DNA from: Microcaldota archaeon
GTDB taxonomy: Archaea; Micrarchaeota; Micrarchaeia; Anstonellales; Bilamarchaeaceae
NCBI GenBank assembly: GCA_018812625.1
Contig: JAHJDH010000003.1
Location: forward strand, 1-33,820
Length of the DNA: 33,820 nucleotides
Direction: 5' to 3'
Shown here piece by piece: positions 14,386 to 33,778 of this stretch. Position 1 is the stretch's first letter. The number at the start of each line of letters is the position of its first letter. The notes under the pieces are model-generated. The model worked only from the letters and a program-made list of their open reading frames with translations. It was not told where the DNA came from and searched no databases. Both the position numbers and the translations under genes were made by a program.

Positions 14386-14745
14386 ATGGCGAAGCAAAGT
14401 AGCACATCAAAAAGAAGCTCTAGAAAAAAAATTACAAATACCTCAGACATTGTTAAAAAATCGGCCATGTATGAAAAAGACCTTAACGTACTCGAAGATG
14501 AGACACTAAGAAAAGTAAACAAATCTATTTCTGCTTTGGAAGTTGCGCTGGCGGGTTGGGAAGCATCAAAAGATAAGCCAGAATATCTTAGATCAAAATA
14601 CCAAAAATATGAAAGATTTCACAAGGAACTAGCCATGTGGACAAAAAAAATACTTCATGCTAGAAAACTTAAACGGCCTGTTGATGAAAGGGTGGAACTG
14701 CTCAGAGATTTTGTAAAAATCTGCAGTTCTTACAGCAGGAGTTAA
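14386..14745 (+). CDS. Small basic helical protein encoded just upstream of the giant protein
   Basis: A 119-residue protein that I do not recognise. The N-terminal 20 residues are a Ser/Lys/Arg-rich disordered tail (KQSSTSKRSSRKK). The remainder is almost entirely predicted amphipathic helix (YEKDLNVLEDETLRKVNK, EYLRSKYQKYERFHKE), basic overall, with no signal or membrane segment. Its stop codon lies 4 bases before the ATG of the 6,342-residue ORF, and the giant's ribosome binding site (AGGAG) is inside this gene's last codons. The two are therefore almost certainly co-transcribed and may be translationally coupled. A partner or chaperone role for the giant protein is inference from this arrangement. 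Confidence 0.75.
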   Translation: MAKQSSTSKRSSRKKITNTSDIVKKSAMYEKDLNVLEDETLRKVNKSISALEVALAGWEASKDKPEYLRSKYQKYERFHKELAMWTKKILHARKLKRPVDERVELLRDFVKICSSYSRS

Positions 14746-14749
14746 TCAA

Positions 14750-17700
14750 ATGGCACAAAGATCAAGAAGAGGTCCGGAAAGAACTGAAGAAGTAATACCA
14801 GTACAGCAACCTCTTCGGCACGGACAACCTCCTCCAGTGCAACAGCAGAATCTTGAGGCTCTCAGTGCAGATACAGACAGGCAACTAATCCCAGTTTTAA
14901 ACCAAGGCCCTCGTGTTGCTGAGCTCATAAGACAAACAGACCCTGAGTCAATGGAGGTATTACACCAGGCTAACGAACTTGTTCAATGGGCGGATAGTAG
15001 AAGCGGCTCAAAGATTAATGGTAGAGAGTATTCCAATGAAATCAACTACATAGGCAACCTCGCAAGACAGGCAAGAGATACTCGTGACCCAGCCGTTCTT
15101 CAGAGGGCAAGAGGGATGGTTTATTCATTTGCCCTCATGATCAGCACGCAGGTTCGCCTTGATGCAGAAGCTGCAGGCACCCCTGAAGCAGCCCACCTTA
15201 CCCAGATGATTGAACGCTCAAGACAATTCTTCACAAATCCAGAGGAACTGCACAGAACCATGGGTTCGGCTATGGCATCGTGGATGTACATAGAGAACAG
15301 GCAGGTTTACGATGCAGCTCCGGAAATGAAACAAAATCTTTTCAACTCAGTTGAATCTTTCTCCGACCCATCCAGGGAAGTGAGACCAGAACAAATGAGC
15401 CAAGCATTCTCAACAATCACGAGCAGCCTTGACTCGGTAGTTATGAGAATGGAAGGCACGCAAGCAAACATGCAGGCTGCGCTGATGAGTCAAGTGCACA
15501 TGCTGGTTTCGCTGGAAGCTATCAGAGAAACGATGAAAGGAAAGATGGAGAAACTTGATAAGGCAATCAAAAAAATGACTGAAGCGCTTTCAGATTCGAA
15601 AAAAACAGAAGAAGAAAAAGAAAAAGAAGTAGCGATGGTTGAGAAGGAAATCAGAGATTTTGTTGCTGAGGCAATTGATGTTGCGCTTGCAGATGCAAAG
15701 GCTCCACCTGAACTTCTCGCTGCAATGGGAAAAGCAAGAGAATTCCTGAAGAATCCAAAACTCCGCGAGAGAGGACAGCGTATCCTGATGGCAGGAATTG
15801 CCTATTTCAACAGCAGACTTGTACTAAACCTTCCTGAAAATCAAAAACTTAAAAAAGCCCTGCTCGATGCAGTTTCCAAACTTGCAGACAATCAAAAACC
15901 AATTTCTGCAATGCTGAGAAGGAGACTGATTTCAATTCAGATGGGCATCAGCGCTGCATTGAAAAGTGCAGAAGGAAGACCTGAAATTGTAATTGCCAGG
16001 ATAAGCGAGTCTCTGGACAACCTGAAGGCAATGGCAGCTACGGCAGGCAACAAATACCTCTCCAAAACAATCGATTACATCAAAAAACTAGTTAAAGGCA
16101 TCAAAGATCCAAGAGAATTGAAAATAATCGTGGGTTTGATGGGTTACATCAGAGGCTCCCTCGATGGACTTTCGAAGATGCCAGCAGAAACAAAAGATGA
16201 GAAAGAAACAAGGGACAATGTTGCCACACTTGTTGCGAATGCAGTTCTTGTTTCTCTTAAAGAACCGCGTTCTGAAGCAGCGAAAATGGCAAGGCTGCTC
16301 GCAGGAGTATATGCAGGATTCAAAAATGGCGCGCTGCTGCTAAGCATAAGCAAGGGACTCAATGAAGGAAGCATTGTAGTTGATGAGGCAAAAGAAAAGG
16401 TAGCTGCGTTTATTCTCCGTGAGGCAGATGCATCCATCGCGAGGATAAAAGAATCAAGTCCTGAGCTTGCCAAAAGAATCGCAAGATTTTTCGGAACGCT
16501 CCGAAAGAATCCTGGCAGTACAAGCACAGGCATTTTTTCCCGCGCCCTTGATGTTCTGGGATTGTCAAAATTCATATCCGATAAGGTCATCCCACACAAG
16601 AACAAAAAGATCAGGAAAGGACTGCTGGATATTGCAGGGGAAGCTCTTGGAGCGCTCGAGAAAGGAGACCGTGAAGGTTTTGACTCTTCGGTTGGAGTGG
16701 CAGCTGCTCTTCTTGATATGCCAGAGCAGGAGGCAGAGGCAGTCATTGATGGGCATGCACAGAAGGCAGAGGAAGCAAAGCAAGAGAAGGAGCTTGGCAG
16801 ATACCAAACGTTCATGGCCCTTGAGGGATTCCTAGGCAAGTTCGGCCAGATGGAACTGGCAGATGACAAACTTAAACAATCAATTTCCTTCGTAAGAAGG
16901 ACAATAGAAAAAATCCAGGAGAGAATCCAGAATGGAGAGGATGTCGGCCAGGGCACGATGAAGAATCTTGAGAAGATGATTTCCTTGGTCGAAGCAGCTG
17001 CTGGGATTCTCAAGGAAAGAACTGGCTGGGATGTAAAGGGACAGGAGAAAATTCTTGGGCAGGGCATGGCAGCATTCGTTCTTGCAGGGCAATTAAGCAC
17101 AATGTCGAACATCATGAAAGGCCCGCAAAAAATGAGCGTTGAAGAAGTGGCAAGAACAGTACTTGGAGAAGGCGCAACAAAAGATGAGGTACGCATCCTT
17201 GCTGATGAATACAAAAAAGAGAATTTAGATAGCAGAATCCGGGAACTTGGAAACCTGGCGAGCTTGCACATATACATTGCACAAAAATATGATGAGTCGC
17301 ACAGCGCAGAAGACAAGAAAAGATTCCTTGGAATGAGCAGCGACATCGCAGATGGCAAGATGTCACAAGGAAAAGCACTCCAGAATTTGGCAAAAGATTA
17401 CGCCGAGCAACTTGGCAAAATAAAGATACAAGACCCAGCAATCAAATCAATATTTGAAAGGATAATCAAGAGCCTTGACTCCCCCACAATCAAATTACTT
17501 GGCATGGCGCAAGATGGCATCGAATTGGCGAAAACAATTCAGCATGAGGAAAACATGCTTAGCATGAAAGAGTATGAGGGTATACGAGAAACTTCAATGC
17601 TCATGCTACGAAATGCCCTCACCCTCCTGCAGAACGGTGTGGAAAGTGAAAATGTCAATTCCATAATCGAACTTGCAAGAATGCTCCGGGAGAACCACAA

Positions 17701-20700: not shown

Positions 20701-23700
20701 AATGAGAAGGGCCGCCTTCAAATATGATTCTGATTCTGAACTTGCCACGCTTGCTTTCGATGCACTGAAACTCAGGCAGCAAGTGCACGGAGCATCGGAA
20801 AAAAGCAGAGAGTCTCTGATTGCTCAGGCAGAGGATAAGGAAATGCAGATTATGCAGCGCCTTAGAACAGATCCAAAGAAGATGGATATTATAGCATCGC
20901 ATCTCTTGCTTAGAGGAGTTAGAACAAATATCTTGACAATAGGCGCTCCAATTGACAAAATCAATGAAACCCTTGGAAGGAGTCTTGTATATATGGCAAA
21001 GCACCAAGATGGGGTGCTCCAGTTCCAGCAGCATGAAAGCGGAAGACGCATCGCAACCGACGCAGTGAACATGTATATCCAAGCACATGGAGCAAGATAC
21101 AATCTGCAACGGGCCCGTCCTCATGGTTTTGAGTCACGAGTTGCAAGAAGGCAGCTTGAACTCTCGGCAAACGGATTCCTTGGAATTGCCAGAAACGCAA
21201 GCTCAGACACTGCATATGCCCATCACCAAGCTGCACAGGGGGAGATGATAGGACAGTGGGAAAACGCATATAAGATGTATGGTGAGGCACTCGCAGGCCT
21301 TGCAACACCAGGTGGAGTGAAACCAGATGCAATTACAGAAGATATGGGATATGCATTCCAGCTCATGCGTGAATTCCCATCGGTTGCTGAAGTCACGAAG
21401 CTCAATGTTCGCCTCATGCATGCGAGCTGGGGCATATATATCGACCCGGAAACCGGAGAAACAAGTGAATTGCACCTAACAGCAAATGAGCAGAGGGTTC
21501 TGGTTGCCGCAATGCAATCTGCAAACGGCGCCCTTGAACAGATGCTCGGTACTGCCTCGAGTCTCAGAACATTCATGAGCACTGGCGCTGGTGATGAGGG
21601 CCACGAGATTCTGCTTGAATTAGAATCACATATCGAAGAAGTCGAGAAACAGATAGGAACTCTGATGCAGCATGCAGCAGCAAGGGACCCAGAATACATC
21701 AAGAAATACGGCATCACAGATGAGATGAGCCATTCTGAGCTGACTAAAATAACAGGCGATATCACCAGCCACCGCGATAAGACATTTATAAAAGTAGATT
21801 CTCTGATACAAAGCGGAACCTCATGGGACACCGCTGTAATGATCGGAGAAACACTCGTCAAAACAGTCGCCTACAGCGCGCTTGCATTCAGCGGATACGG
21901 AACAGCCGCAGGAGTAGCAGGTCTTGCTGAAACATATGTTGGTATGGAGGAGATGGTAGCCTCAAAGGGCGGACTTGACCAGATGGAAACCCGCGAACTC
22001 TGGGCATACTACGGAGGATATGCAGTAGCTGGCGCTGGAGCAATTGTTGGAGGATTGAGCGACTCGATGAGAATGGCACGCAGTCTCAGTTCACCAACTC
22101 TAGGAACAGTTGGGCTAAGGATTCCAGGAACTTCAAGTTTAGCCCCTCGGGCATTGGACAGAGTAACTAGTGTCCTGGGCTCAGGAGTCATGGACAAGAT
22201 AACAAATGTCGGCGGCCTTCTTCTTATGGGCGGTGGTGTGGCACTTGGAGGACTCGAAGTATATAACATGTATAGGGAAGGCGTAACAAGCGAAGCGCAG
22301 TATGGACTTGCATTCTGGAACGCACTGAATCCAGCCCTTGCAATTGGAGGCTCAAAGATTATGAGTCTCAATCCAAAGCTCGCACACAGCAGAAGTCTTG
22401 GGGCAACGATGTACCGCGGCATGATGGGAGGATTATTCGGAATTTCCCAGAGAGAAATGGTCGCGGCCCATAAGATGCAGAGCCAACAACAGTATAATGC
22501 AATGCGCGAATCAAGAGTTGCCAGGATTCGTGGACCGACAAGAAAAAGTACGAGAAAAGCACAGAGCCATCAGTGGGCAATTGATGAGACTGCATTCACA
22601 GCAATCGAACAAAGGCAGGGCTCCCTGACAACAGAAGAACGCATCATGGTTCTTGAGCATTACAATGCTGGAGAAGGAGGTCCAAGACAGATAAATGCAG
22701 TGGAAGCTGCAGGACTTCTTAGCGATTATAATTCACTTGTGGAATCCAGGATCGGACAGCTCTCACCTGAGGCCCAGACAAGGATAAGACAAATTCCTGA
22801 TTTGATAGGAAGGCAGCTTGAGAACGGAGAAGCGCTTGCGATAATAAATGAGTTTGGACACGAGATTCCAGGCACTCTCAAAGCTGAGATGGTTGATGGA
22901 AAACCTGTAGCAAAAGTACAGGTCGATGTCGGACGCATCATGCAATTCCTTGATGGACAGAGAATGAATGCGGCAGAGACTGGCAAAAAACCATTCTACA
23001 CACTTACAGATTACGCCTCTTACAAACAAAGACAAAGTGCAAAGGTACTTGCAGGACTTGAGCCTCCAAGCGCAGCCCCAAAACCAGTTGATACTGGTCG
23101 CGTTCTTGCAGGTCTTGATACTGCGGCAAAGTCCAGAGACTACCAGAAAACAAGAGAAGCGATTCTTGGAATTACAATTGCAGGATACAGCGATGAGCAC
23201 ATCGCTTTCGCAAGAAGCATTGCTTCAGCAGCTGACTTTTTCGCCAATTACAATGAGTTCCCGCCTGGAACTCCTGCAGAAGTAGTCAAGGCCGCACAGG
23301 CATTGGCAGGAGCAAAAGGAAAGAAGAGTAATTTCAGAGATGCCACAAATTATGGGAACGCAAAGCAGCAACTCCAGCTTGCTCTTGATGCAACAAGCGA
23401 GATATTCATCAAGCAGGCTGAGCAAACACAATCAGCAGTCACTCTCGGACTCGGCACAGCAGAAGGAGTAGCTAAATTCACAAGAAGAATTGTGCGTATG
23501 GATTCAGATGCACTTGGAGCGCTCGCACAGCTTCCGCAGGATATCCAGCAGACAGTCAGAGACCTGGCCAATGACCCGAGATTCTTTGTAGCAGCCAAAT
23601 CCACGGAAAAGGAAGAAACGATAGCAAAGTTCTCAGGCCCAGGTGGAAAACTAAGGGATGTTGCACAGGAAGCTGCGGAAAAGATTGCACCGAAATTGCC

Positions 23701-26700
23701 TCCACCAGAAGCTATTGATATACCAATTCAGAAAGCAGTAGGTGACGGTCTCACTCCAATAGTTGGTGAGGAAGTTGTGGTGCAGCCAACAGGAGCAGAT
23801 CAGACCAAGGCAATGAAGATTTCAATTGCAGGTGGTGGGGGTGGAAGAGCACATATACCTGTCCCAGAATCAGTCCCAGTAACAGCTGAGAGCGGATCTC
23901 AGCCAAGGGCAATTCCGCTTCGCCTTGTTAAGCAAAAGAGTGAAACACCTGCTGTCCCAGTACCTGCGCCTGAGCAAATGCCAGCACTTCCACCAAGGAA
24001 AAGACTGACAGAACTCGCCAGCCTGGCGCATGATGCTGTTTTTGGAACTGATGCCCAGAAGCTAAATGCCGCAGACCAGATTGAATCTTTGGACGCAGGT
24101 GAACAGAGAGCATATACAAAATTCGAAAGTCTTGCAAAAAGAATGAAAGAACGCGGAGATGATTTCAATCCAGAAAATTATTCAACTGCCTACTGGGAAC
24201 AGAACGCTGAACCAGGTGTGATTGAAGCCCAACTCAAGGCAGACAAAAAAATTGCTGATTCGCTTGTGGATGCCTATAACAAAATCAATGAGATGGGAAG
24301 CAAACCCATCGAGCATGGCGGGCTCAGACTTGCAAGAGAATACAGAAGAATGCTCAAGTACATAGCAGATGGAGACAGTCCACAGCAGGCCGCAGAAAAA
24401 GTGGTAATGGAATACAGGAACCATGAAACTCCATTCTCCTGGGAGAAGAGAACACCTGCTAGCGCCGCACCAGTAATTGCTACTGAAACAGTTCCGCTAG
24501 CAACTTATGAAGGAGCAATTGGTAATAGAATAGGAAGACCTGAACTTGAGAAGGTTATCGCAAATGCAGATGCGAGAACTCAAAGAATTGCAAGGGTGCT
24601 TGATTATTTCAGAAAAGCACTTGGCGAATCTTCTGTTCCGCCAGAGCTTCGCCCCGCACACAGGGCAACAAAAGATAGCGACAGCCCAGCGATCATCTTG
24701 GAGCAGGCATTAAGATTTACGCAGGATCTGCCGGCAGTAGTTGAATCTCCAACAGAACAAGTGTCAATAGACCTTGGACCATATCGTGGAATAGCAATGA
24801 CGCCAGGTTCAGAAGCGCTTGAAGGAGTCCTAAGCGGATATGCTGATCCACGAATTAGGGAGGTCGCAAGAGTTCTTGAGCACATCAAGGATGGAATACT
24901 CACAGAAGGCAAGGTTCCTGGTAATATGCCCAAAGAACTGATTGCAGAATATCAGGCCATGAGAAAGAGTGCAAGTTCAGAAGAAAAATTTGTTATTGGA
25001 CCAAGGGATTTGGTCGGCCAGGCAATCAATTATGTCATGAGAAAAAGAGGTCAGGCAGAAGAGGGAGAACCAATACCACTTGTCCGAAGGAAAGTTCAAC
25101 AAGCACCAGCCCAACAAGCGCAGGAAGCTCCAGTTATACCGCCCCTCCCGCCAATACCAAAGATGCCAGAAGTATCGCAAAGTGTTGAAATTCCGGTTGC
25201 AGAACAAATGAACTTTGGAGTATTTGATTTTGTTGCATCCAATCCAGGATCTGCTGCTCTTGAAGGTACACTAAGTACAATCACTGATAAAAATGTAATT
25301 GGTTTTGCAAGAGTCCTTGAAAGACTTAATAGTATGGACGCAGACTATCACCAGGTCCCTGGATTGCCTGGGGATTTGCTAAATGCTTACCGTAAATTTG
25401 TTGCTGACAAATGGAATGAAGGAGTCTACTTCCTCAAGCCTGAGCACTTTGTTGGTTTCGCAAAAGAGTATGTTGCAAAAAAACAGACTGCTGCACTGCA
25501 GGAATCACAAGCAATTCCATTGGTCAAAATAAAACCACCTGAATCTGAAGACGAGATTACTGCAGTAATACCATCAGAGGATCTGAGAACCACCAGAAAG
25601 ATGAAACGCCCAGAAGAAGTGATTGAAGTTGATCTTGGCGAGGTCCAGGTTGTAGGCCAAGAAGAACCAGTATCCCCACCGCATCCAGCACAAGGAGAAG
25701 AACCCACAATTATAACTTCTATTCCAGAGGAAGAGACAGTGCCTTTCAATCCAGCAGTGGCAGCTGATTCTACTTTGGCAAATGGAGAGCCAAAGCTTTT
25801 GAATGAACCAACTTACATAAATGGCATCCTGACAATAGAGGCAAGTGGCCTTGGCGGAGATATAGGACATGCTGTGAAACCAGAACATGCCCAGTTCGCA
25901 GTGAATGGAGAATTCAAGACTGCAGGACATAGCGTGAAACCCAAAGGACTTTGGTTGTCCTGGGGCTCTGGATGGGATAATTTTACAAAATTTGCTGGTA
26001 TCGATTTCTTGGGCAACGTTAAGTTTAAAGCAGAAATAAGATCAGGACTAAAACTATTCCTCCTTAGGGATGGCGAGGCCTTCAGCAAGATGATGACTGA
26101 ATTCAGGAAAGATATAAAGGTCGCAAAAAGAACTGAGGGCAGTTATCCTGAAGGCACATGGTATGATGGGAAAAGCTCTTACTATGAAAAGAGCCCTTGG
26201 CAATGGCTCAAAGAAAAAGGGTATGATGGCGTAGCAGTAACAGCAGATGGAGTAGGGGACACAAACTATCAGTTCATGTGGGACGCTGAGTCCATAGTTA
26301 TTTTCGAACCAAAAGGAAGTGTTAATTTACCAAATGGAGAAGCCAGGCTCAAGGAATATCAACAGAGTACTCAAAGCAAGATTGACAGTTTTATACCTGA
26401 GATAAAGAAAGAAGTTGGTGGATTGCATACACAAAAAGAGGCGTACGAATTATTAGATGCATATGCCAAAGGTACCGAGGTATTAGATCAAGATCATAAA
26501 AAATTCCTTAAAAAACTAAAAGATGATGGACTGAGTTTAGAAGATGCAGCAGAAAGCATAATCAAATACCTGATTGATGAAGAAGCGGAAGATAACAGTG
26601 TTGCTAGTATGCCAGCTCCGCATCCAGCACAAGGAGAAGAACCCACAGTTATAACTTCTATTCCAGAGGAGATAACACGGCAGGTACCGCTTCCAGGGGG

Positions 26701-29700
26701 CGAAGAAGGAGTAGTTGAACCTTCAGGACCCACACACTTATACCAGGCCCAAAGCACATCACCTGTTTCTGAAGCCCAGCCACCAATCTCAAGTGATATA
26801 CTGTTCCAAAGAATAGGACAGTCTTTGGAAAACAGCGATCTGAGACAAAGGGATGCATCCAGTATTAATGCCCAGCATGAGAGCACGCCGCTCAGTGAAG
26901 ATGCACTTGATAATGCGCTTTTCCTGTTCAAGGATAGAACAACAGATGGGAGTTCCAGAAAAATTGATGATGCAATTGAAGATGGACTCATAATCGCACC
27001 TCATCTTCCTGATACAAAACACCTTGACATATTTGCTTACTTCAACCCGGAAACAAAAAAGATTGTCAGTGTTGTTGAGTCTCATCCTGACAACATGCCA
27101 GCTTCTCTTAGAAACAATTCAGATCTACTTATAGTCAAATTTAAAGTCAATATCGAGTCAGGCAAAATTGTCGCGATCACCCAGACACCCAATGCAAACG
27201 CGACGGTTAGGATAGCAAACGAAAGGCCTACGCAAGACCTAGCATTGACAGGTCTTGTTGGAATGCGAGTCATGAAACAAAAAACGGTGCAAGCTCCTGA
27301 ACAGGTATTTTCATATGTTCATCAGCCATTGTCAAGCCAAGCTCTTCAGGATAAGCTTGTTGCTGCTGAATCCAAAGGAATAATAACTCCGGAACAAGCG
27401 AAATACTTAAGGAACCAAAGAATTTTCCTGGCAGATGAAGCTAAACGTGATCAGGCACACAGGCAGAGAGTGCTTGATGGTGGAGGCATTTTGAAACCAA
27501 AAGATTACGACTCCATCCCATTCACTGACAAGGCTGCTGATAACGCTGTGACACTGCTTAGCCATTCAAGTGATGTTGATGGACAGCAAAGAAGAACTAT
27601 TGATCTTGCGCTTGAGAGCAGCGGCTGGGTGCCAGGAGAAGCAGGAACCATTAACGCTTATTTCGACCCGAGAACAGAAAGCATAGTTGCAGTTGTCATA
27701 GATCCTACGAATATAAATTCAGATACTGATGCACCTTTTGGAATACCTAGAGAGATCGCGAGAGATACGATATTGAGCAAGGTAGAGTTCGGGATAGGAC
27801 CGGATGGAAGAATAATTAATGTCCGCGAAACACCCAACATCCCAGGAGGAAGTGCATTTGCGGATCCGGAAGGTGCGATTTTCTATTCATTAAGCGCATT
27901 GAAGGGAATGCAGATTGTTGATACTGAACCTGCAGGAGGGCCTCCAAGCGGACCGCGAAAACCATCCGAGCCAAGGGACCTAAAAGGAACAGCGCCTGCA
28001 GCGCCACGTGTTACACCAACTGACATGAAGGCCACTGCACCTGCAGCGCCAAGAGTATCTGCACAAGAAGCAGCAGCTCCGATAGCTAAAGGAATATTAA
28101 GCGGGAACCAAGATGCAATTGCAAGTTACAATAGTATGCCAAAGGCACAGCAAGATCAGATCGGATTTGAAATGACAAAACAACTCGGACTTGATACCAA
28201 CATTGGACTTACCAGATTCGCAAGAGAAGTTAGACTTAGGAACAAAAACATACTTGAAAGAATGTCTATGCTGCCGCAAGAAGTTCAGGATGCAGTAAAC
28301 AGGCTTGCCAAGGGAGATCTTAGTAAGAGCTTTGCAAGCAGAGAAAGGAAAACGCAGAAGGCTGCTGTTGAAACGGCACGTGGCGACATGCTTGATGCAA
28401 TAGAAGGCACAATGCCTGAAGCAGCACAAGAACAAGTGCCTATTGCTGTAGGTGGAGAAGTATTTGAAACTATGAAACCGCCTCAAGAACATGAAGTGCA
28501 TGAAGAAAAAGGACCTGTAATAAAAGCAGTTAAAGATTCAGGAGATGGATCAAAAGGTCCGCGAATCGTCTCGCCATGGGCAGCAGGCGGACCGAGGATA
28601 ACTGTAGGAGGACCTTCAGCAACCGCACACGTGATGCCACCAGGTGGAGGAGCAGTTGCGCCCAAACAATTACCAAGAGGGGAGCGACAAAGACAAAGGT
28701 TCCTCTCAAAACCATTTAGACAATCCAAATTAGTTAGAACATTGACTAGAGAATGGACACTTAGTAAAGGAAAAAAACTCAGCAAAGAATTCAATATGGA
28801 AATTGCTTATCTCATGACACAACCTGAGGATGTCCAGCAGAGAGTAAGAGAGAAGACAACAGCCAAGATTAGGGAAACTTCGGGAGACAAAATAGCAGAC
28901 AGTTTTGATGAAATGTTCACGATTTTAATGAATGTCAAGGGCACTCAATTTTCGCCAGAATATAAACCTGTACTTGAGCTTGCTCCAACACTTTACCAGG
29001 ATCCTGGAGGCTCGAAGACATCATATCCAGGAAAAGAAGATGTGATGAAAAGAGGTACTGAAGAACTCCTTCATGCGCAGGGAATTGAGGTTGGAAAAGG
29101 CGGGTTTGAGAACCTGCTCAATATCATGATAGAAGGGGAAATAAGGTATGGACAGTTCGGGGGTCTTTCAGAAGAAGGAGGACTACAGAGCATGCTCGCA
29201 GGAGGTCATGGCCCATACTATATTGTAGTTGACAGAAGCGTCGCTAAAACTCCAGCACCTGAAAACTTCCATATCGCTTATATCGTTCCAACAAATGAGC
29301 ACAAGAAAGGAGTGATAGCTGCATTGAACCAGGCTGTGGAACAAGGTCTGATGAGCCATGATGAGGCTGTTGGAGTGATGTCAAAAGTAGCGACATATGA
29401 TGAGTTTGCCAATGCTCCAAAGGGAATTTTCGAGAAGCCAGGCGACTTTGCTGCTTCACAGAAAGCGCAGGCTGAAGCAGTTATTGCTGGAGCTCCAACT
29501 CAGAAGCCGCCCTCAAGAATACCATTCTCAGTTAGTGATGCAGAAGTTGCAGTTGAACTGGCTTCCCTCCACCAAAGGGCAGCCTCACCTTGGGCAGGAG
29601 AAACATTCCGCAAAGAAATCAGTGCTGAGGCAATGAAAAAAGGAATCAGCTACGATCAGGCACTGGTAGAAAGGGCAAGAGGAAATGCAGTCAGGAAAAA

Positions 29701-32700
29701 AGCTTCCCGCAGAGCTAGAGAATCAGGATTAGATAATGTTGTAAAAATAGAGGCAACTCCTGAAGGAGAAGTGGTCAGGTTCGCCAGATCAGATGGCACT
29801 GAAGCAGTGATGAGCCGAATGCGTTTCGAAACAGTGCGTGCGCTTGTGCTTGAAGCTGAGAATGTAATTAATGGAGCTCCAATTCTTGATGAATCAAAAC
29901 GCGCAAGACTTACATCGCTAAAGGAAGATACAGAATTCAACAACGCAATGCAACATGGAGACCGGACCGCACAGTTCGATAAAGCGCTTCGGCAAATCGA
30001 GCTTCCTGGCAGATCCGCAGAGCTGCATGACATAGCCCAGCTGTTCATTTCAGGAGAACCTGCGAAAATCAAGGACGCTACAGCCAGGTTCTATGCATTG
30101 TCGAATTCAGAGAAAGATTCGATAAACGCAATGGTCTCAGAGGGAAGCAGATATGTGAATGCTGGCTCGGACGAGCGACGGACAATCGCAAGGGAATATG
30201 CACTTGAGAGTGCACATCGCGCAGCAGGAAGACCAAGAGAAGTTCCGAACAAGGAAAAACTTACCGAGCTTGCACAGGCAGCTTGGCATATGCTTTATGG
30301 AAACAAAGATGCTGTAGGCAAGTTCCTTGATGGTCAGGATCTGAGCATGGCAGAGGAGCACGCATATGGAAGGTTCTACCAGTTGATGAAGAACCAGGCA
30401 ATGGAAAGCCCTGAGAAGATCAATATACAAGGATATGTTGATGGTTATCTGGCAGAACAGGCTGGTGCTGCTACGCATGATGTCACTACAGGCTATACTA
30501 ATTACCTAAAGGCAAAAGCCATCCAGGGAGAAATAGCAATCCAGGACTTCTCAGATGAGGTCCAGCTGATGGCAAAAAGAATAGATGCAAGCGAGCTTCC
30601 AGCTGCAGGACCTGAAAGAGAAAGCTACCTGAATGGGAAGGCAGAACAGGTCCGGATAGATTTAGCTAATATGAAAGCGCTCATCCAAAACTATGACCAA
30701 ACACCTGAAAATAGGCCAAAGACTCCTGCGATGGAAATGATGGATGGCTATGTTTCGCAGGGCATGAGCCTAGGAGATTCTGCTGAACATGTCCTTCTTG
30801 ATATGGCCAGAATTGATTTCCTTATCAGTACTTATGAGCAAGGACCTGAAGCCAGACCAAAGACACCAATTATGGGATTCATGGATAGCCAAGTTCAAGC
30901 AGGCAAAAACGTGAATGATGCCGCGAGATTAACATTGGCAGGCATAAAGGCTGCTGAGGCAGCGCAAAGCGCAACATATGCTGCAGATGAACCTCATGTC
31001 CCGATGCCTGCCGCGGCTTTTGACAGCAAGCTGAACACAGCGAACCTTCATCCAGAGGCACAGGAAATGATTCTAGCCCGGCAGAGCCAAAAACGCCTCA
31101 GTGAAGGAGGGCTTGACAATTGTATAGCAATTTTCAGCAGCGATCTTACTGCCGCAGTACAGGATGGTTTGAGTTATGTCAATGCCCCAAGACCTCGTCT
31201 TCCAAAAGAAGAAGGAAGCAATATCCCAGTTAGTGCATACGTCAATTCAGAAGGAATAATAGTTGCAGTCATTGACAGCTGGTCAGCCATCAGAGATGGT
31301 ACGAGTTCAATTCCAGCAGAAGTCCGAAACAACAGGAACCTTTCGATAGCGATTTTATCGATAAACATGGAAAGCGGAAAAATCGAGAATGTGTTCTGGC
31401 AGGCCGGATATGAAACCAATCTCAGTACAAAGACCAAATCACAGCAGCATCCACTAACAGACCTGGTTGGTCTGAAGGTTCTGAAACCTCATGAACCATC
31501 TAGTCCTGGAGGAGGTGAAGGCGGACATTCACAAGGTCCAGAAGGACCAGAAAGTATTACACATGTTTCTGGAGACGGTGAAACACCCCCCATCCATATT
31601 GAGGCAGATCCTCAAGAAAACGCACCAACCTCGCAATACGGAACTGAGCCACAGCAAGTTGATCCCACGCTTGAATCAGAAGTCATGACAACTCCACTCA
31701 AGGTTGCGGAAAAACCTAAACCTCAGGCAGTAGTTGAAGAACCAGAAGTAGGAAAAACTTTGCCAGGAATTGGTCCTGAGATTGGCGAGGATATTGGAAG
31801 CGCATCAACTGAAGCAGGTATAGCAGCGCAAGGTGTACTGCTTGAGGAACAGGACACACAGGACCATTATGAACCGACAGTAGCATCTCCTGGAGTTGAA
31901 AAATCCAGCGGGAAGAAACCGCAGACTGCGGAGACATTGCTGAGCGTGGCAGAGAGTTTTAGTAGGCTGAGGGAAATGGAGCCCCAACAAAGAGCTACAG
32001 AACTGTCAAAGCTGGATATTGATAAAAATGCAATAAGGGCAATTGTAGGAATCCTCGAATATCCTCAAGGTGACCCAATAGCAGTTGCAATAGCAAATGA
32101 ATGGGAGATATCGCAAGTTGCAACGCTAAGGCAAAGGCGAATTGATGGTTCTAGAGAATTAGGAGCACTGAAGGCAATTGATGAGGCTTTCGGCAATTCA
32201 GATCTTTGGACAGGTGAGGAAGGTTCTGGTAATCCCACAGTTGAGACACTGATAGCTGCCCTTGGACTAAGCAAGAACACTCCGATGAGCAGAACACTCA
32301 GTAACCCTACAGAAAGCAACTCCCAGCGCAATGCAATAGTAGCAGCCTACAATTCCGAGGGTGCCAACGGAGTGATGAAGTACCTTGCTGAAAGAGGATT
32401 TGATAGCAGGGAAGTCCAGAGACTTCTTGTTCTTGACAGTCATATCCGGTCCAATATATCTGAACTGCCACAGAGAATAAGAGAAGCTTATGAATATGAA
32501 GGAGTCCTTGGAGTATTTGGAGAATTAGTTGGGCTTGGAACTCTTGGCGATAAAAAAATCCTTACAGATACAGCCAACCTTGCCCAAGGAAATATGACAT
32601 TCGTTGAACTCGTGATAAAAGGAGATCTTGCTGGAAAAATACAGACTTTGCCAGGATATGAAAATGCCAGAATATATGGCATTTCTAAAATTCCCGGAGG

Positions 32701-33778
32701 TGTGGGAAGGTACAGAATCATCCTCAGCAATGGCAGGGAACTTTTCGCTCAGGTTGAAGATTATGCACCGGCTAGATTAGGTGCGCAATTATTCGAAGCT
32801 CAGGGACTTTGGAAAACATCAGACAGGTTCCATAAATTCAGTTATGAAACAGGAATTCTTGATCCTTCGCAGCAACCAGAAGTTGTGATGTTTGGTTTCA
32901 CGCAGGACATGCACGATTTCGCAAAAGACAGTGAACAGATTAGGATAAGAATGCCTGAATCCGGACAAATGGAAGATGTAAAAGTTGCCGGAGTCGCATT
33001 GAAAAATGACCTTCTTATGGCAGATATTAATGATCCTGTAGTTGTGCAAGGCCTTGTGCAAAGAGGTTCATTGGAAGCTGTAAAAACATTTAGGAAAATG
33101 CTTGGAACAAGTAAAGGAAGAGAAGAGATAATGAAGGCATGGGCTGCATATCACGAGATGGCAAGAAGGGCAATCGGAGTGGACAGATTCCTTAGAAACA
33201 CGGCCATGGTTCTTGTAAAAAGAGAGAATCCCAAACCAGGACAAAGCGAATATGCCATCACTTTCCAGCCATTTGATACTGATTTTGTTGGGGGTAGAAT
33301 CTTAGGAAAAAGAGATTTGCTTAATTTCCACAGTTTTGACAAAGACTTTGCTGATGCAAGCATAAAATTCGTAAAAGAACTGCATTTTGCAGCTATGAAG
33401 GGGAACATACTGATTAGTCAGAAAAAGCTTGCACTCGAACTGCTAAGAGCACACGAATCATGCAGCATCCCAATATTGCCAGAAACAGCAGTGCATAATG
33501 AAGCAGTCCTTCAAGGGCATGTTGGAAAGGCATTCGGGTTCCCCGTCCGGGAGGGAATTGCAGTAGTTCCGAATTACGCTGGAAGAAGAAGAGTTGTTAT
33601 GCGTGAGGATGGCAGAATGATTCTCAATAGGCCTGAGGAATTGCAAAAAATACAAGACACTACATTGTCAGCAAATAACCGCAGAGATCATGATAAAGTA
33701 AGGAGAATGTACTTTGTCAAGGACTCTGGATTCGCACTGACAAGAAGCGACATCCAAAGTCTTGGTCCATTGAAATGA
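14750..33778 (+). CDS. Giant 6,342-residue multidomain protein
   Basis: A single uninterrupted ORF. The start is supported by AGGAG about 9 bases upstream and the 4-base gap to the preceding gene. There is no signal peptide: residues 1-45 are Gln/Pro/Arg-rich and disordered. Residues 45-2350 are almost wholly helical, with a highly charged coiled coil near 264-304. Residues about 2366-2543 are Gly/Ala-rich and hydrophobic. Pro-rich linkers then join repeated domains: three copies of a GSxALEGxL domain (3251-3610), an ADP-ribosyltransferase-like domain (about 3690-3870), three copies of a DNAxxLF...GxxVxK domain (4047, 4256, 5448), a domain with GGHGPYYIVV (about 4720-4900), paired helical repeats, and a C-terminal kinase-like domain (about 5950-6342). 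Whole-protein function is unknown. Domain recurrence and mixed catalytic-like folds resemble effectors or polyvalent proteins; host interaction is a hypothesis. Confidence 0.95.
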   Translation: MAQRSRRGPERTEEVIPVQQPLRHGQPPPVQQQNLEALSADTDRQLIPVLNQGPRVAELIRQTDPESMEVLHQANELVQWADSRSGSKINGREYSNEINYIGNLARQARDTRDPAVLQRARGMVYSFALMISTQVRLDAEAAGTPEAAHLTQMIERSRQFFTNPEELHRTMGSAMASWMYIENRQVYDAAPEMKQNLFNSVESFSDPSREVRPEQMSQAFSTITSSLDSVVMRMEGTQANMQAALMSQVHMLVSLEAIRETMKGKMEKLDKAIKKMTEALSDSKKTEEEKEKEVAMVEKEIRDFVAEAIDVALADAKAPPELLAAMGKAREFLKNPKLRERGQRILMAGIAYFNSRLVLNLPENQKLKKALLDAVSKLADNQKPISAMLRRRLISIQMGISAALKSAEGRPEIVIARISESLDNLKAMAATAGNKYLSKTIDYIKKLVKGIKDPRELKIIVGLMGYIRGSLDGLSKMPAETKDEKETRDNVATLVANAVLVSLKEPRSEAAKMARLLAGVYAGFKNGALLLSISKGLNEGSIVVDEAKEKVAAFILREADASIARIKESSPELAKRIARFFGTLRKNPGSTSTGIFSRALDVLGLSKFISDKVIPHKNKKIRKGLLDIAGEALGALEKGDREGFDSSVGVAAALLDMPEQEAEAVIDGHAQKAEEAKQEKELGRYQTFMALEGFLGKFGQMELADDKLKQSISFVRRTIEKIQERIQNGEDVGQGTMKNLEKMISLVEAAAGILKERTGWDVKGQEKILGQGMAAFVLAGQLSTMSNIMKGPQKMSVEEVARTVLGEGATKDEVRILADEYKKENLDSRIRELGNLASLHIYIAQKYDESHSAEDKKRFLGMSSDIADGKMSQGKALQNLAKDYAEQLGKIKIQDPAIKSIFERIIKSLDSPTIKLLGMAQDGIELAKTIQHEENMLSMKEYEGIRETSMLMLRNALTLLQNGVESENVNSIIELARMLRENHKNPERMELLETACSNSAIGVQLFQMVLTIRLEPGLTMEDAAKKALQSLNPGKKITSDEVTGLVKTYEGAEKARDKPGGAAVMALELLKRSSLFIEIANKKKAVEVMQSRAIGLVEKSLYQPLIDALGRYLINISQGEKPKDEDILLIQRSPQILAGNGGTVSRLFVTSQDPAIRMQQAEVFAGLRSIDQVLKPLRGLIRERTAAIYAKAQEELEKGNLNETAVYLSLAQAYASTRTPKERKEIQDYVSRLSKSTMSENEMLALPKDERPITSAEALWISKVYRERFDISTGIRNPAQKRNFIIYSDLALKAYQQGDQDGANLLRNAARFYGNAALGGVRDGIALADGTDGIPSLKQLQEGISKGQSLAQILGAKKGEEEIVLQTFGFRLREIDIIVGSAAFDSRMQNVESRGVQYKAEAGRLGRLRTTAQQKNDSIGAERLEYQIGLVDIEKTKGWLEQAKTTRDDGVRLLRFSLAKEREALQKSGDDAAALMKEAGELRTKGERLLYLAENIQASALLFHTSISEVGTIHRQRGRHECAMAADGFVAVAKELRDTEGIPEEDVLAKHQITIKSANQSLQMGASQISQQRGIQSSVWGLVQRAKKLTADNQKFGEVYGKETKPIKGYPNVRSSALAYDESKIQKRIDRGTQLAMSERIGAAGGVLNAAGFHMNSSVLAAVICSKHWNLIRQATEREKEEGMFEFHTEAWLGFIEKGQEFADQGNMAAAEDQMRFVNYEVVKIQGWRQNLHNSFNANVTLWRMGRADARAHARSLADRHYDITTDREVSGIDEAPSGPQSVRALYRTMRSKNRKRYVDAVEKAWTDWEQKYIDKGTFPTADEEAAFRTSVEQLPEVKKAVQRNEEVEGKFWEGNLWSSDLEQVDPHYQYMDHALMGSAPNRKKQDWHRYYSEVEASNRAHSTWQGNAQDANGQADQAMMRAAQLQWIKQKTFSTDDVPEGNPKLNQMLAMAVAANDGIVIETLKAIERGEDSLFGIGKITPEMRRAAFKYDSDSELATLAFDALKLRQQVHGASEKSRESLIAQAEDKEMQIMQRLRTDPKKMDIIASHLLLRGVRTNILTIGAPIDKINETLGRSLVYMAKHQDGVLQFQQHESGRRIATDAVNMYIQAHGARYNLQRARPHGFESRVARRQLELSANGFLGIARNASSDTAYAHHQAAQGEMIGQWENAYKMYGEALAGLATPGGVKPDAITEDMGYAFQLMREFPSVAEVTKLNVRLMHASWGIYIDPETGETSELHLTANEQRVLVAAMQSANGALEQMLGTASSLRTFMSTGAGDEGHEILLELESHIEEVEKQIGTLMQHAAARDPEYIKKYGITDEMSHSELTKITGDITSHRDKTFIKVDSLIQSGTSWDTAVMIGETLVKTVAYSALAFSGYGTAAGVAGLAETYVGMEEMVASKGGLDQMETRELWAYYGGYAVAGAGAIVGGLSDSMRMARSLSSPTLGTVGLRIPGTSSLAPRALDRVTSVLGSGVMDKITNVGGLLLMGGGVALGGLEVYNMYREGVTSEAQYGLAFWNALNPALAIGGSKIMSLNPKLAHSRSLGATMYRGMMGGLFGISQREMVAAHKMQSQQQYNAMRESRVARIRGPTRKSTRKAQSHQWAIDETAFTAIEQRQGSLTTEERIMVLEHYNAGEGGPRQINAVEAAGLLSDYNSLVESRIGQLSPEAQTRIRQIPDLIGRQLENGEALAIINEFGHEIPGTLKAEMVDGKPVAKVQVDVGRIMQFLDGQRMNAAETGKKPFYTLTDYASYKQRQSAKVLAGLEPPSAAPKPVDTGRVLAGLDTAAKSRDYQKTREAILGITIAGYSDEHIAFARSIASAADFFANYNEFPPGTPAEVVKAAQALAGAKGKKSNFRDATNYGNAKQQLQLALDATSEIFIKQAEQTQSAVTLGLGTAEGVAKFTRRIVRMDSDALGALAQLPQDIQQTVRDLANDPRFFVAAKSTEKEETIAKFSGPGGKLRDVAQEAAEKIAPKLPPPEAIDIPIQKAVGDGLTPIVGEEVVVQPTGADQTKAMKISIAGGGGGRAHIPVPESVPVTAESGSQPRAIPLRLVKQKSETPAVPVPAPEQMPALPPRKRLTELASLAHDAVFGTDAQKLNAADQIESLDAGEQRAYTKFESLAKRMKERGDDFNPENYSTAYWEQNAEPGVIEAQLKADKKIADSLVDAYNKINEMGSKPIEHGGLRLAREYRRMLKYIADGDSPQQAAEKVVMEYRNHETPFSWEKRTPASAAPVIATETVPLATYEGAIGNRIGRPELEKVIANADARTQRIARVLDYFRKALGESSVPPELRPAHRATKDSDSPAIILEQALRFTQDLPAVVESPTEQVSIDLGPYRGIAMTPGSEALEGVLSGYADPRIREVARVLEHIKDGILTEGKVPGNMPKELIAEYQAMRKSASSEEKFVIGPRDLVGQAINYVMRKRGQAEEGEPIPLVRRKVQQAPAQQAQEAPVIPPLPPIPKMPEVSQSVEIPVAEQMNFGVFDFVASNPGSAALEGTLSTITDKNVIGFARVLERLNSMDADYHQVPGLPGDLLNAYRKFVADKWNEGVYFLKPEHFVGFAKEYVAKKQTAALQESQAIPLVKIKPPESEDEITAVIPSEDLRTTRKMKRPEEVIEVDLGEVQVVGQEEPVSPPHPAQGEEPTIITSIPEEETVPFNPAVAADSTLANGEPKLLNEPTYINGILTIEASGLGGDIGHAVKPEHAQFAVNGEFKTAGHSVKPKGLWLSWGSGWDNFTKFAGIDFLGNVKFKAEIRSGLKLFLLRDGEAFSKMMTEFRKDIKVAKRTEGSYPEGTWYDGKSSYYEKSPWQWLKEKGYDGVAVTADGVGDTNYQFMWDAESIVIFEPKGSVNLPNGEARLKEYQQSTQSKIDSFIPEIKKEVGGLHTQKEAYELLDAYAKGTEVLDQDHKKFLKKLKDDGLSLEDAAESIIKYLIDEEAEDNSVASMPAPHPAQGEEPTVITSIPEEITRQVPLPGGEEGVVEPSGPTHLYQAQSTSPVSEAQPPISSDILFQRIGQSLENSDLRQRDASSINAQHESTPLSEDALDNALFLFKDRTTDGSSRKIDDAIEDGLIIAPHLPDTKHLDIFAYFNPETKKIVSVVESHPDNMPASLRNNSDLLIVKFKVNIESGKIVAITQTPNANATVRIANERPTQDLALTGLVGMRVMKQKTVQAPEQVFSYVHQPLSSQALQDKLVAAESKGIITPEQAKYLRNQRIFLADEAKRDQAHRQRVLDGGGILKPKDYDSIPFTDKAADNAVTLLSHSSDVDGQQRRTIDLALESSGWVPGEAGTINAYFDPRTESIVAVVIDPTNINSDTDAPFGIPREIARDTILSKVEFGIGPDGRIINVRETPNIPGGSAFADPEGAIFYSLSALKGMQIVDTEPAGGPPSGPRKPSEPRDLKGTAPAAPRVTPTDMKATAPAAPRVSAQEAAAPIAKGILSGNQDAIASYNSMPKAQQDQIGFEMTKQLGLDTNIGLTRFAREVRLRNKNILERMSMLPQEVQDAVNRLAKGDLSKSFASRERKTQKAAVETARGDMLDAIEGTMPEAAQEQVPIAVGGEVFETMKPPQEHEVHEEKGPVIKAVKDSGDGSKGPRIVSPWAAGGPRITVGGPSATAHVMPPGGGAVAPKQLPRGERQRQRFLSKPFRQSKLVRTLTREWTLSKGKKLSKEFNMEIAYLMTQPEDVQQRVREKTTAKIRETSGDKIADSFDEMFTILMNVKGTQFSPEYKPVLELAPTLYQDPGGSKTSYPGKEDVMKRGTEELLHAQGIEVGKGGFENLLNIMIEGEIRYGQFGGLSEEGGLQSMLAGGHGPYYIVVDRSVAKTPAPENFHIAYIVPTNEHKKGVIAALNQAVEQGLMSHDEAVGVMSKVATYDEFANAPKGIFEKPGDFAASQKAQAEAVIAGAPTQKPPSRIPFSVSDAEVAVELASLHQRAASPWAGETFRKEISAEAMKKGISYDQALVERARGNAVRKKASRRARESGLDNVVKIEATPEGEVVRFARSDGTEAVMSRMRFETVRALVLEAENVINGAPILDESKRARLTSLKEDTEFNNAMQHGDRTAQFDKALRQIELPGRSAELHDIAQLFISGEPAKIKDATARFYALSNSEKDSINAMVSEGSRYVNAGSDERRTIAREYALESAHRAAGRPREVPNKEKLTELAQAAWHMLYGNKDAVGKFLDGQDLSMAEEHAYGRFYQLMKNQAMESPEKINIQGYVDGYLAEQAGAATHDVTTGYTNYLKAKAIQGEIAIQDFSDEVQLMAKRIDASELPAAGPERESYLNGKAEQVRIDLANMKALIQNYDQTPENRPKTPAMEMMDGYVSQGMSLGDSAEHVLLDMARIDFLISTYEQGPEARPKTPIMGFMDSQVQAGKNVNDAARLTLAGIKAAEAAQSATYAADEPHVPMPAAAFDSKLNTANLHPEAQEMILARQSQKRLSEGGLDNCIAIFSSDLTAAVQDGLSYVNAPRPRLPKEEGSNIPVSAYVNSEGIIVAVIDSWSAIRDGTSSIPAEVRNNRNLSIAILSINMESGKIENVFWQAGYETNLSTKTKSQQHPLTDLVGLKVLKPHEPSSPGGGEGGHSQGPEGPESITHVSGDGETPPIHIEADPQENAPTSQYGTEPQQVDPTLESEVMTTPLKVAEKPKPQAVVEEPEVGKTLPGIGPEIGEDIGSASTEAGIAAQGVLLEEQDTQDHYEPTVASPGVEKSSGKKPQTAETLLSVAESFSRLREMEPQQRATELSKLDIDKNAIRAIVGILEYPQGDPIAVAIANEWEISQVATLRQRRIDGSRELGALKAIDEAFGNSDLWTGEEGSGNPTVETLIAALGLSKNTPMSRTLSNPTESNSQRNAIVAAYNSEGANGVMKYLAERGFDSREVQRLLVLDSHIRSNISELPQRIREAYEYEGVLGVFGELVGLGTLGDKKILTDTANLAQGNMTFVELVIKGDLAGKIQTLPGYENARIYGISKIPGGVGRYRIILSNGRELFAQVEDYAPARLGAQLFEAQGLWKTSDRFHKFSYETGILDPSQQPEVVMFGFTQDMHDFAKDSEQIRIRMPESGQMEDVKVAGVALKNDLLMADINDPVVVQGLVQRGSLEAVKTFRKMLGTSKGREEIMKAWAAYHEMARRAIGVDRFLRNTAMVLVKRENPKPGQSEYAITFQPFDTDFVGGRILGKRDLLNFHSFDKDFADASIKFVKELHFAAMKGNILISQKKLALELLRAHESCSIPILPETAVHNEAVLQGHVGKAFGFPVREGIAVVPNYAGRRRVVMREDGRMILNRPEELQKIQDTTLSANNRRDHDKVRRMYFVKDSGFALTRSDIQSLGPLK
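21845..22380 (+). other. Hydrophobic Gly/Ala-rich central segment of the giant protein
   Basis: Residues about 2366-2543 contain several 18-22 residue hydrophobic stretches in an otherwise charged protein: VAYSALAFSGYGTAAGVAGL, YAVAGAGAIVGGL, VGGLLLMGGGVALGGL and LNPALAIGG. The small-residue content resembles membrane-inserting or pore-like hairpins, or tightly packed helical pairs. It splits the helical N-terminal arm from the repeat-rich C-terminal chain. Real membrane insertion is not proven. Confidence 0.5.
24500..25490 (+). repeat. Three copies of an approximately 100-residue domain in the giant protein
   Basis: Copies begin near 24500, 24788 and 25214 (residues 3251, 3347 and 3489). 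The shared pattern is GxxxLExxLSxxxDxxxxxxARVLE, then a VPxxLPxxL turn and a final helix ending in YVxxK. Copies 2 and 3 are closest (GSEALEGVL and GSAALEGTL), and both are followed by a linker with IPLVRRK or IPLVKIK. Copy 1 is the most diverged. Confidence 0.65.
25679..25731 (+). repeat. Left 53-bp direct repeat flanking the ADP-ribosyltransferase-like cassette
   Basis: Begins CCGCATCCAGCACAAGGAGA and encodes the linker HPAQGEEPTIITSIPEE. It matches 26618-26670 at 52 of 53 bases (one A/G difference). Copies are 939 bp apart, exactly 313 codons, so the reading frame is kept. Confidence 0.9.
25732..26617 (+). other. Cassette encoding an ADP-ribosyltransferase-like domain
   Basis: Residues 3662-3956. 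The core (about 3690-3870) has a GHSVKPKGLWLSWG strand and a downstream SGWDNF. It then has WQWLKEKGYDGVAVTADG and a closing strand MWDAESIVIFEP with a candidate catalytic Glu. This order of motifs (KPxGLW ... GYDGV ... WDxES ... P) recalls phage and bacterial proteins that I associate from memory with ADP-ribosyltransferase-like folds. A helical tail follows. Fold assignment is tentative and activity is not shown. Confidence 0.4.
26618..26670 (+). repeat. Right 53-bp direct repeat flanking the ADP-ribosyltransferase-like cassette
   Basis: Second copy of the linker repeat, encoding HPAQGEEPTVITSIPEE, with one base difference from 25679-25731. Sequence outside the 53 bp differs at once on both sides, so the homology is sharply bounded. 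Confidence 0.9.
26888..27277 (+). repeat. Copy A of the recurrent DNAxxLF...GxxVxK domain
   Basis: Residues 4047-4176 of the giant protein. The domain runs LSEDALDNALFLF, IFAYFNPETKKIVSVVES, LLIVKFKVNIESGKIVAI and LTGLVGMRVMK. It is an alpha/beta domain of about 130 residues. Copies B (27515-27922) and C (31091-31486) follow the same order. No family was recognised. Confidence 0.75.
27515..27922 (+). repeat. Copy B of the recurrent DNAxxLF...GxxVxK domain
   Basis: Residues 4256-4391. Pattern: FTDKAADNAVTLLSH, INAYFDPRTESIVAVVID, ILSKVEFGIGPDGRIINV and LSALKGMQIVD. It lies about 80 residues after copy A, joined by a helical linker. Confidence 0.75.
27977..28066 (+). repeat. 45-bp tandem linker repeat (two units)
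   Basis: Two adjacent 45-bp units encode DLKGTAPAAPRVTPT and DMKATAPAAPRVSAQ. This is an Ala/Pro linker directly after copy B of the recurrent domain, likely made by slippage or unequal crossing-over. Confidence 0.7.
28900..29440 (+). other. Unrecognised globular domain with GGHGPYYIVV motif
   Basis: Residues about 4717-4897 of the giant protein. Successive elements are EELLHAQGI, IRYGQFGGLSEEGG, GGHGPYYIVVDR, HIAYIVPTNEHKKG and LMSHDEAVGVMSKVATYDEF. The mix of Gly-rich turns and strands differs from the helical surroundings. It could be an enzymatic domain; I cannot assign a family. Confidence 0.4.
30677..30958 (+). repeat. Two tandem 47-residue helical repeats
   Basis: Units start at residues 5310 (ALIQNYDQTPENRPKTP) and 5357 (FLISTYEQGPEARPKTP). 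Each continues with a helix and a GxSLGDSAE or GKNVNDAAR turn. A related single element (GLRLAREYRRMLKYIADGDS) occurs near residue 3190, after the RLTELA element at 3085. The KLTELA counterpart at 5170 lies before this pair, so a larger segment may have been duplicated. Confidence 0.65.
31091..31486 (+). repeat. Copy C of the recurrent DNAxxLF...GxxVxK domain
   Basis: Residues 5448-5579. Pattern: LSEGGLDNCIAIFSS, VSAYVNSEGIIVAVIDS, LSIAILSINMESGKIENV and LTDLVGLKVLK. It lies more than 1,000 residues after copy B. The end (LTDLVGLKVLK) is closest to copy A (LTGLVGMRVMK). Confidence 0.75.
32590..33778 (+). other. C-terminal kinase-like domain of the giant protein
   Basis: Residues about 5947-6342. 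A strand pair YRIILSNGRELFAQVED is followed by a helix with Glu (AQLFEAQGL). Then comes GVDRFLRNTAMVLV (Asp6145, Asn6150), which fits the DRxxxN catalytic loop of PI3K- and HipA-like kinases. ITFQPFDTDFVGG (6176-6179) fits the metal-binding DFG region, about 26 residues later. The usual ATP-binding Lys position appears to be Gln6001, so it may be inactive or use another Lys. Tentative. Confidence 0.4.

Follow-up and report, generated by a model that had tools for sequence, protein, structure and literature searches.

The 33,820-nucleotide contig JAHJDH010000003.1 (referred to here as the window) carries an open reading frame (ORF) for a protein of 6,342 amino acids. The gene for this giant comes second in a two-gene cassette, present in multiple copies across the genus, in which a gene for a small helical protein directly precedes that for a long partner. 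The gene pair looks like a previously undescribed way to build, and probably export, giant effector proteins. On balance, and with considerable reserve, we take the giant to be an exported, modular, effector-type cargo with a dedicated small adaptor; it is one copy of a cassette of the Bilamarchaeaceae. The window is the whole of contig G000:C6 from a 1.27-Mb, 85%-complete genome (code G000) of the Micrarchaeota (DPANN lineage; Anstonellales, Bilamarchaeaceae), and belongs to a tiny, symbiont-type archaeon in the genus of Candidatus Bilamarchaeum dharawalense. The archaeal origin presumed in a preliminary description of the sequence is confirmed by the S15 protein, which is 59–74% identical to those of a series of Candidatus Micrarchaeota metagenome-assembled genomes.

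The small protein has a core of about 80 residues, in which E37, W58, K64, P65, W85, L106 and F109 are invariant or nearly so across the alignment. Genome profile searches, which covered one phylum (Micrarchaeota), found it in 26 of 301 genomes: 16 of the 17 genomes of the genus have it (1–10 copies each), a further nine belong to other genera of the family, and the last lies beyond the family. At 53 of the 58 loci read, a same-strand ORF of 300 amino acids or more comes directly after the small gene, at a distance of −116 to +157 bp (start codons of the cassette ORFs were picked mechanically); 39 of these 53 long partners are complete and they span 344–8,599 amino acids. A single case of fusion, between the small protein and a metallopeptidase partner, was found in genome G017. 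The maximum-likelihood tree of 45 small proteins requires 3 changes to account for three partner classes, compared with 19.1 when the labels are shuffled (0 of 200 shuffles were as low). Because the tree sorts by partner class, sequence comparison provides strong evidence that the small and long proteins form cognate, co-evolving pairs. The preliminary description would have counted a restriction of the gene to symbiotic DPANN genomes in favour of its idea, and recognizable relatives are confined to one Micrarchaeota family and one outlier; a pattern scan of genome contigs that included other phyla, and was of low sensitivity, found no relatives of the giant C terminus. The outlier (L137; G102:C36 1670–1960 and downstream) is the sole cassette outside the family, and comprises a small protein and a 1,043-amino-acid ORF with a weak match to a kinase N-lobe; lateral transfer is possible.

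Class I partners are HExxH metallopeptidases of about 340–480 amino acids (weak SprT-like match, E = 8.4 × 10−5), class II partners are proteins of 1.9–3.6 thousand residues with an arm and a hydrophobic segment, and class III partners are giants like that of the window. A second class III giant of 8,599 amino acids is encoded in the same genome (G000:C32, L014) and has a calcineurin-like phosphoesterase domain at about residues 6700–7900 (E = 1.6 × 10−7). After the class II gene there is usually one that encodes a GDSL/SGNH hydrolase domain (E = 1.6 × 10−10 in the copy tested) and one for a long signal-peptide protein. In the three species examined, this cluster lies beside the genes for phosphoglucosamine mutase and PRPP synthetase. 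Operons of this type (G000:C35:5874–28379 [L084, L133], G010:C7 and G009:C3) encode the small protein, a protein of about 2,900 amino acids, the GDSL-hydrolase protein and a signal-peptide protein of about 2,900 amino acids with a beta-rich C terminus and an aromatic-rich strand at its end. Directly 3′ of several giants is a gene for about 170–190 amino acids (L017 10274–10822, L019 5020–5565, L020 10790–11359 and L023 4998–5501), possibly an immunity or second helper gene; the giants ahead of it share a C-terminal domain with a ‘RAPFAYMDSN’-like motif. Genus-relative contigs referred to here by code include G010:C15 (JAHJCT010000022.1), G004:C24 (JACRGB010000001.1) and G009:C11 (CABMJJ010000011.1).

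The single 19-kb ORF of the preliminary description was recovered at exactly the same coordinates (Table 1). At the observed composition, the log10 probability of 6,342 stop-free codons is about −164; codon-position bias is strong, and the other five frames contain 134–433 stops. That the data come from metagenome-assembled genomes, and that one relative (G009:C11) is broken by an in-frame TGA, could be taken to indicate an assembly artefact or a pseudogene; this idea is already contradicted by the codon bias, the ribosome-binding-site-like motif and the independent occurrence of giants in many genomes with separate assemblies, and we give it practically no credence. The broken relative (L077; G009:C11 15157–32838) is the giant of Ca. 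Bilamarchaeum dharawalense, split by one TGA into 2,699 and 3,193 amino acids, which may reflect recoding, decay or a sequencing error. Isolate LFW-283_2, the source of this contig, is the type of that taxon (PMC8561730), and the full text of the paper makes no mention of giant proteins.

Iterative profile searches of the giant in segments of 250 amino acids gave the order of its parts, with a mosaic of modules after the hydrophobic centre. In keeping with the preliminary description, composition and hydropathy indicate a hydrophilic N terminus with no signal-peptide-like segment. The 2,300-residue helical arm stands in part: the first approximately 2,300 residues are hydrophilic and rich in helix formers, with ‘helical’ here meaning composition and weak coiled-coil matches. 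Residues ~126–1870 align colinearly with other giants, and residues ~1750–2250 are private to the window protein. The hydrophobic centre is real but mild (peaks of about 1.3–1.5 over 19–21 residues); it lies within residues ~2300–2750, is conserved and is recognizable in 12 aligned relatives (13-sequence alignment). Arm and centre are colinear with those of five other giants, whereas the C-terminal modules vary in place and copy number. These modules recur in other giants, arranged and repeated differently, and also exist as genes of their own (G008:C3 65678–68101 and G008:C4 6209–7177).

The duplicated domains of the preliminary description were verified by pairwise tests against shuffled sequences; a BLAST self-comparison gave only the full-length self match. 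Module R1, of about 145 residues, occurs three times (pairwise z = 16.5, 20.1 and 5.2), and the pairs R2 (residues 2889/4461, z = 7.7), R3 (3341/3481, z = 22.3) and R4 (3075/5161, z = 9.2) were also detected. Pfam and NCBIfam identified no domains over the full length of the giant, and slices compared with Pfam, NCBIfam, PHROGs, PADLOC and PDB profiles gave nothing useful. The AlphaFold model of the conserved module at residues 4649–4901 (predicted local distance difference test (pLDDT) 71, predicted template modelling (pTM) score 0.56) has no convincing structural match in Foldseek. A 70-residue similarity of this module to Wolbachia CinA/CinB entries (probability up to 0.92, E = 2.4) was too weak to use.

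A kinase-like domain had been proposed on the basis of motifs, and its fold is now backed by structure prediction. Profiles from Pfam and the PDB do not recognize it. The AlphaFold model of residues 5931–6300 (pLDDT 77, pTM 0.77) has a bilobal kinase fold, and all 50 of the 50 PDB matches listed by Foldseek are protein-kinase-like; their folds include VPS34, macrolide and aminoglycoside phosphotransferases, Src, Lck, a Fam20-type Golgi kinase and mTOR. The D-R-x-x-x-N and DxD motifs are invariant in nine of nine aligned homologues (residues in Table 1). The beta-3 position is lysine in seven of the nine members, glutamine in the window and histidine in G008:C3, and the glutamine makes catalysis by the window copy doubtful. 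The domain thus resembles the protein-kinase-like superfamily (PI3K/VPS34, APH/MPH, Src and Fam20) in its model and in its D+5N and DxD geometry, and differs from it in the beta-3 glutamine and the absence of a Pfam-kinase profile match; judged by sequence, the family is new. A second proposed enzyme, an ADP-ribosyltransferase-like domain that probably corresponds to residues 3660–3880, gained no support. Relatives of this segment were sought in Pfam, the PDB, PHROGs, phages, 43 genomes of the family and the collected loci, and none were found. The segment is an orphan, and its identification was dropped as unsupported, rather than refuted, after all sequence routes.

Many long partners are almost devoid of lysine. 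Nineteen long ORFs from seven species (G000, G001, G005, G008, G010, G015 and G016) have less than 0.5% lysine and 8–12% arginine, compared with median lysine contents of 5–10% in ordinary proteins of the same genomes; the 8,599-residue giant of G000:C32 has 15 lysines. Cysteine is low in long partners throughout (0.02–0.5%, versus a median near 1% in ordinary proteins). Near-lysine-free proteins (0.06–0.5%) occur on G000:C32, G000:C35, G010:C15, G010:C7, G001:C41, G001:C65, G016:C5, G016:C8, G005:C13 and G015:C25 (loci L013–L018, L023, L072, L076, L084, L086, L091, L094 and L098). Most lysines that remain in the signal-peptide-bearing class II proteins are in the signal-peptide region (5 of 10 before residue 30 in G000:C35; 3 of 5 before residue 32 in G010:C7), indicating that the purge concerns the mature, exported part and acts on a form destined to leave the cytosol. 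Two lysine-free giants retain 8–9 lysines each, one of which is exactly the kinase beta-3 lysine (K3417 in G010:C15 and K2760 in G016:C5), and the chance of its retention in both is about 3 × 10−6. The giant of G000:C32 keeps lysines in two kinase-like N-lobes, in the contexts FAK and VAVK; the second N-lobe (VAVK) was read from the sequence and has no profile match. A ubiquitin-like E1 in the producer was considered as the cause of lysine loss and set aside, as there is no simple correlation across genomes: an E1-like ThiF is present in most genomes, and G010 and G005, which have lysine-free giants, have only a short, weak, partial match. Lysine deserts are known in AB toxins and in pupylating bacteria and their phages (PMC10665810). 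The cassette proteins share with these a strong selective loss of lysine that is confined to one class of proteins and spares the remaining proteome; they differ in being archaeal and up to 8,599 residues long (15 lysines), in retaining lysine at a catalytic position and in that the window giant is undepleted.

We propose that a small adaptor of three-helix type (about 100 amino acids) would bind its cognate cargo in the N-terminal region shortly after the two are made by coupled translation, with residues 1–260 of the giant as the proposed docking site, and that the pair would be handed to an export pathway independent of a Sec signal peptide. A membrane would then be spanned or entered by the long helical arm and the conserved hydrophobic segment, and the variable C-terminal modules (here the divergent kinase-like domain and the repeated modules) would have their effect at or inside a partner cell, most probably that of the archaeal host. 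ATPases of the T2SSE type (type IV pilus/T2SSE-like) and of the AAA_10/HerA type are encoded in every genome of the genus and are common in archaea; the type IV pilus/T2SSE-like ATPases are a candidate export route only, with no link to the cassette. The preliminary description had suggested an effector role. That role is still an inference, which gains strength from the presence of a small partner gene dedicated to the giant, from the co-evolution of cognate pairs, from C-terminal enzymes that are specific to each class and from the loss of lysine in the mature part of operon mates with a signal peptide.

Several observations weigh against the giant being an exported effector. We infer secretion, adaptor binding and the target from indirect rather than direct evidence. 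A full FtsK/EssC-type ATPase was not found, with only short P-loop-sized matches in ORFs of HerA size, and the hydropathy of the hydrophobic centre is below the classical transmembrane threshold. For the kinase-like model, the best Foldseek E value is only 3.6 × 10−3 and TM-scores are low, and given the beta-3 glutamine the window domain may lack catalysis. The contig ends 42 bases past the giant stop, placing any immunity-like downstream gene out of view. Finally, the window giant is lysine-rich (6.3%), except at its N terminus (Table 1), and lysine loss is therefore taken as evidence on the family rather than on the window copy. Bin contamination was considered as the cause of this high lysine content; the tetranucleotide profile of the window-giant flank fits its own bin (r = 0.949) and also a sister species, and so does not discriminate. 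Genome G008 also holds both lysine-rich and lysine-poor giants.

The same observations can be read in other ways. If the giant and its small partner formed a cytoplasmic or membrane-bound skeleton or platform with regulatory modules, nothing would need to be exported, consistent with the lack of a signal peptide, with the long helix-rich arm and its weak coiled-coil matches, and with one giant locus that holds a fixed, core-gene-like chromosomal place near rtcA/S15 in several species. Such an intracellular scaffold accounts poorly for 1–10 copies per genome, mosaic C termini, stand-alone modules and a depletion of lysine and cysteine that extends to signal-peptide-bearing operon mates, and we consider it unlikely, if worth keeping in mind. 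Rather more improbable, in our view, is a toxin used in competition with rival archaea instead of on a host. Polymorphic-toxin logic would explain the adaptor and the conserved N-terminal arm joined to variable C-terminal enzymes, and the gene of about 180 amino acids directly after several giants (twice on G008:C4, and on G010:C15 and G016:C5) could confer immunity; this gene, however, is absent after G000:C32, is conserved rather than variable and would be out of view in the window, and no known toxin fold was found. A small regulator paired with a giant sensor/effector in anti-virus defence would suit the modular architecture with a kinase-like domain and the multiple loci per genome. PADLOC gave no match beyond one trivial coiled-coil, and conserved core loci and signal-peptide-bearing mates are ill-suited to defence islands, making defence a very improbable function.

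Table 1. Features of the cassette and the giant in the window (positions in nucleotides; aa, amino acids; HMM, hidden Markov model).
Feature	Position	Strand	Remarks
Small helical partner, 119 aa, cassette gene 1	14386..14745	+	Core aa 31–109 conserved; basic N-terminal tail; 47 homologues aligned
AGGAG ribosome-binding-site-like motif	14737..14741	+	Between small gene and giant, 8 bases ahead of giant ATG
Giant ORF, 6,342 aa, long partner of cassette	14750..33778	+	Uninterrupted; contig ends 42 bases past stop
N-terminal segment, aa 1–260	14750..15529	+	Pro/Arg/Gln-rich start; 2 Lys in first 262 aa; ‘YxxEIxxI’ region shared by classes II and III
Helical arm, aa 1–2250	14750..21499	+	Iterative HMM windows, composition
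Hydrophobic centre, aa 2350–2560	21797..22429	+	Hydrophobic, Gly-rich segments; conserved in partners of classes II and III
Module R2 copy a, aa 2889–2985	23414..23704	+	Also in at least 5 other giants
Module R4 copy a, aa 3075–3155	23972..24214	+	HMM windows, shuffle test
Tandem repeat R3, aa 3341–3637, two copies	24770..25660	+	Private to window protein; z = 22.3
Probable ‘ART-like’ (ADP-ribosyltransferase-like) stretch, aa 3660–3880 (GYDGV...IVIFEP)	25727..26389	+	Orphan
Module R1 copy a, aa 4033–4185	26846..27304	+	Module also in G000:C32, G009, G015
Module R1 copy b, aa 4251–4396	27500..27937	+	HMM windows, shuffle test
Module R2 copy b, aa 4461–4561	28130..28432	+	HMM windows, shuffle test
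Conserved module, aa 4649–4901	28694..29452	+	Motifs NIM..G, HGPYY, AYIVP, TYxEF; also present in three other giants
Module R4 copy b, aa 5161–5236	30230..30457	+	Within region common to three other long ORFs
Module R1 copy c, aa 5436–5585	31055..31504	+	HMM windows, shuffle test
Protein-kinase-like domain, aa 5931–6300	32540..33649	+	D6145/N6150 (D+5 N), D6176/D6178; beta-3 position Q6001

Elsewhere in the window, a second giant (3–9092, minus strand), whose reading frame runs off the contig end, is a secreted protein of at least 3,030 amino acids; it carries a signal peptide, a LamG domain (E = 1.3 × 10−22) and NosD/beta-helix repeats. Two ordinary neighbours are a PurD-like ATP-grasp ligase (11112–12392, plus strand; TIGR00877, E = 1.3 × 10−27, well under the cut-off of that model) and a gene that looks like a pyruvoyl-dependent arginine decarboxylase (13285–13833, minus strand).

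Giant proteins of other small, host-dependent DPANN archaea offer a comparison. The SPEARE proteins of Nanohaloarchaeota reach about 9,000 amino acids and are thought to serve host interaction; they are surface-anchored and combine LamG/Ig adhesion domains with an ATPase region that resembles VirB4/TraG or type III restriction enzymes (PMC6642349, PMC10266531). Size and DPANN origin are all that SPEAREs have in common with the ORF at 14750–33778, whose partner is small and encoded upstream, whose hydrophobic segment is mild and internal, and whose C terminus is kinase-like. Neither LamG/Ig-like domains nor VirB4/TraG- or type III restriction-like ATPases were found in it with Pfam and NCBIfam, and hydropathy revealed no SPEARE-type signal peptide or anchor (the N terminus is hydrophilic and there is no strong transmembrane segment). 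LXG polymorphic toxins of the type VIIb secretion system use the targeting factors Lap1 and Lap2 (PMC9600955). Here, too, a small helical protein is encoded upstream and is cognate to a cargo with a helical N terminus and a variable C-terminal enzyme; the cassette differs in being archaeal, in cargos of up to 8,599 amino acids and in that an EssC-type ATPase was not seen. No Pfam matches to LXG, WXG, DUF3130 or DUF3958 and no homology to Lap1/Lap2 were found in the cassette. By analogy it may work like LXG/Lap systems; it lacks their defining features and is not classed with them. With polymorphic toxins in general it shares the overall architecture only, of a conserved N-terminal part and variable C-terminal enzymes, and no polymorphic-toxin C-terminal domain was found in the giant using Pfam, NCBIfam and PADLOC.

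The way in which DPANN archaea affect their hosts is an open question, and molecular candidates are few. A conserved, multi-copy gene pair with clear cognate pairing supplies a concrete set of candidate effectors for an entire archaeal family, together with a candidate adaptor. We tentatively suggest, as possible rather than probable, that Bilamarchaeaceae run a dedicated adaptor and giant-cargo export system, which would be the first effector system of its kind to be described in DPANN archaea, and that in many species the cargos have lost their lysines everywhere but at catalytic positions because this residue is a disadvantage at their site of action, such as the interior of a host cell with lysine-targeting degradation or modification machinery. 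Near-lysine-free proteins of thousands of residues in which the beta-3 lysine is kept constitute a natural experiment that marks the important residues and hints at the place in which these proteins work.
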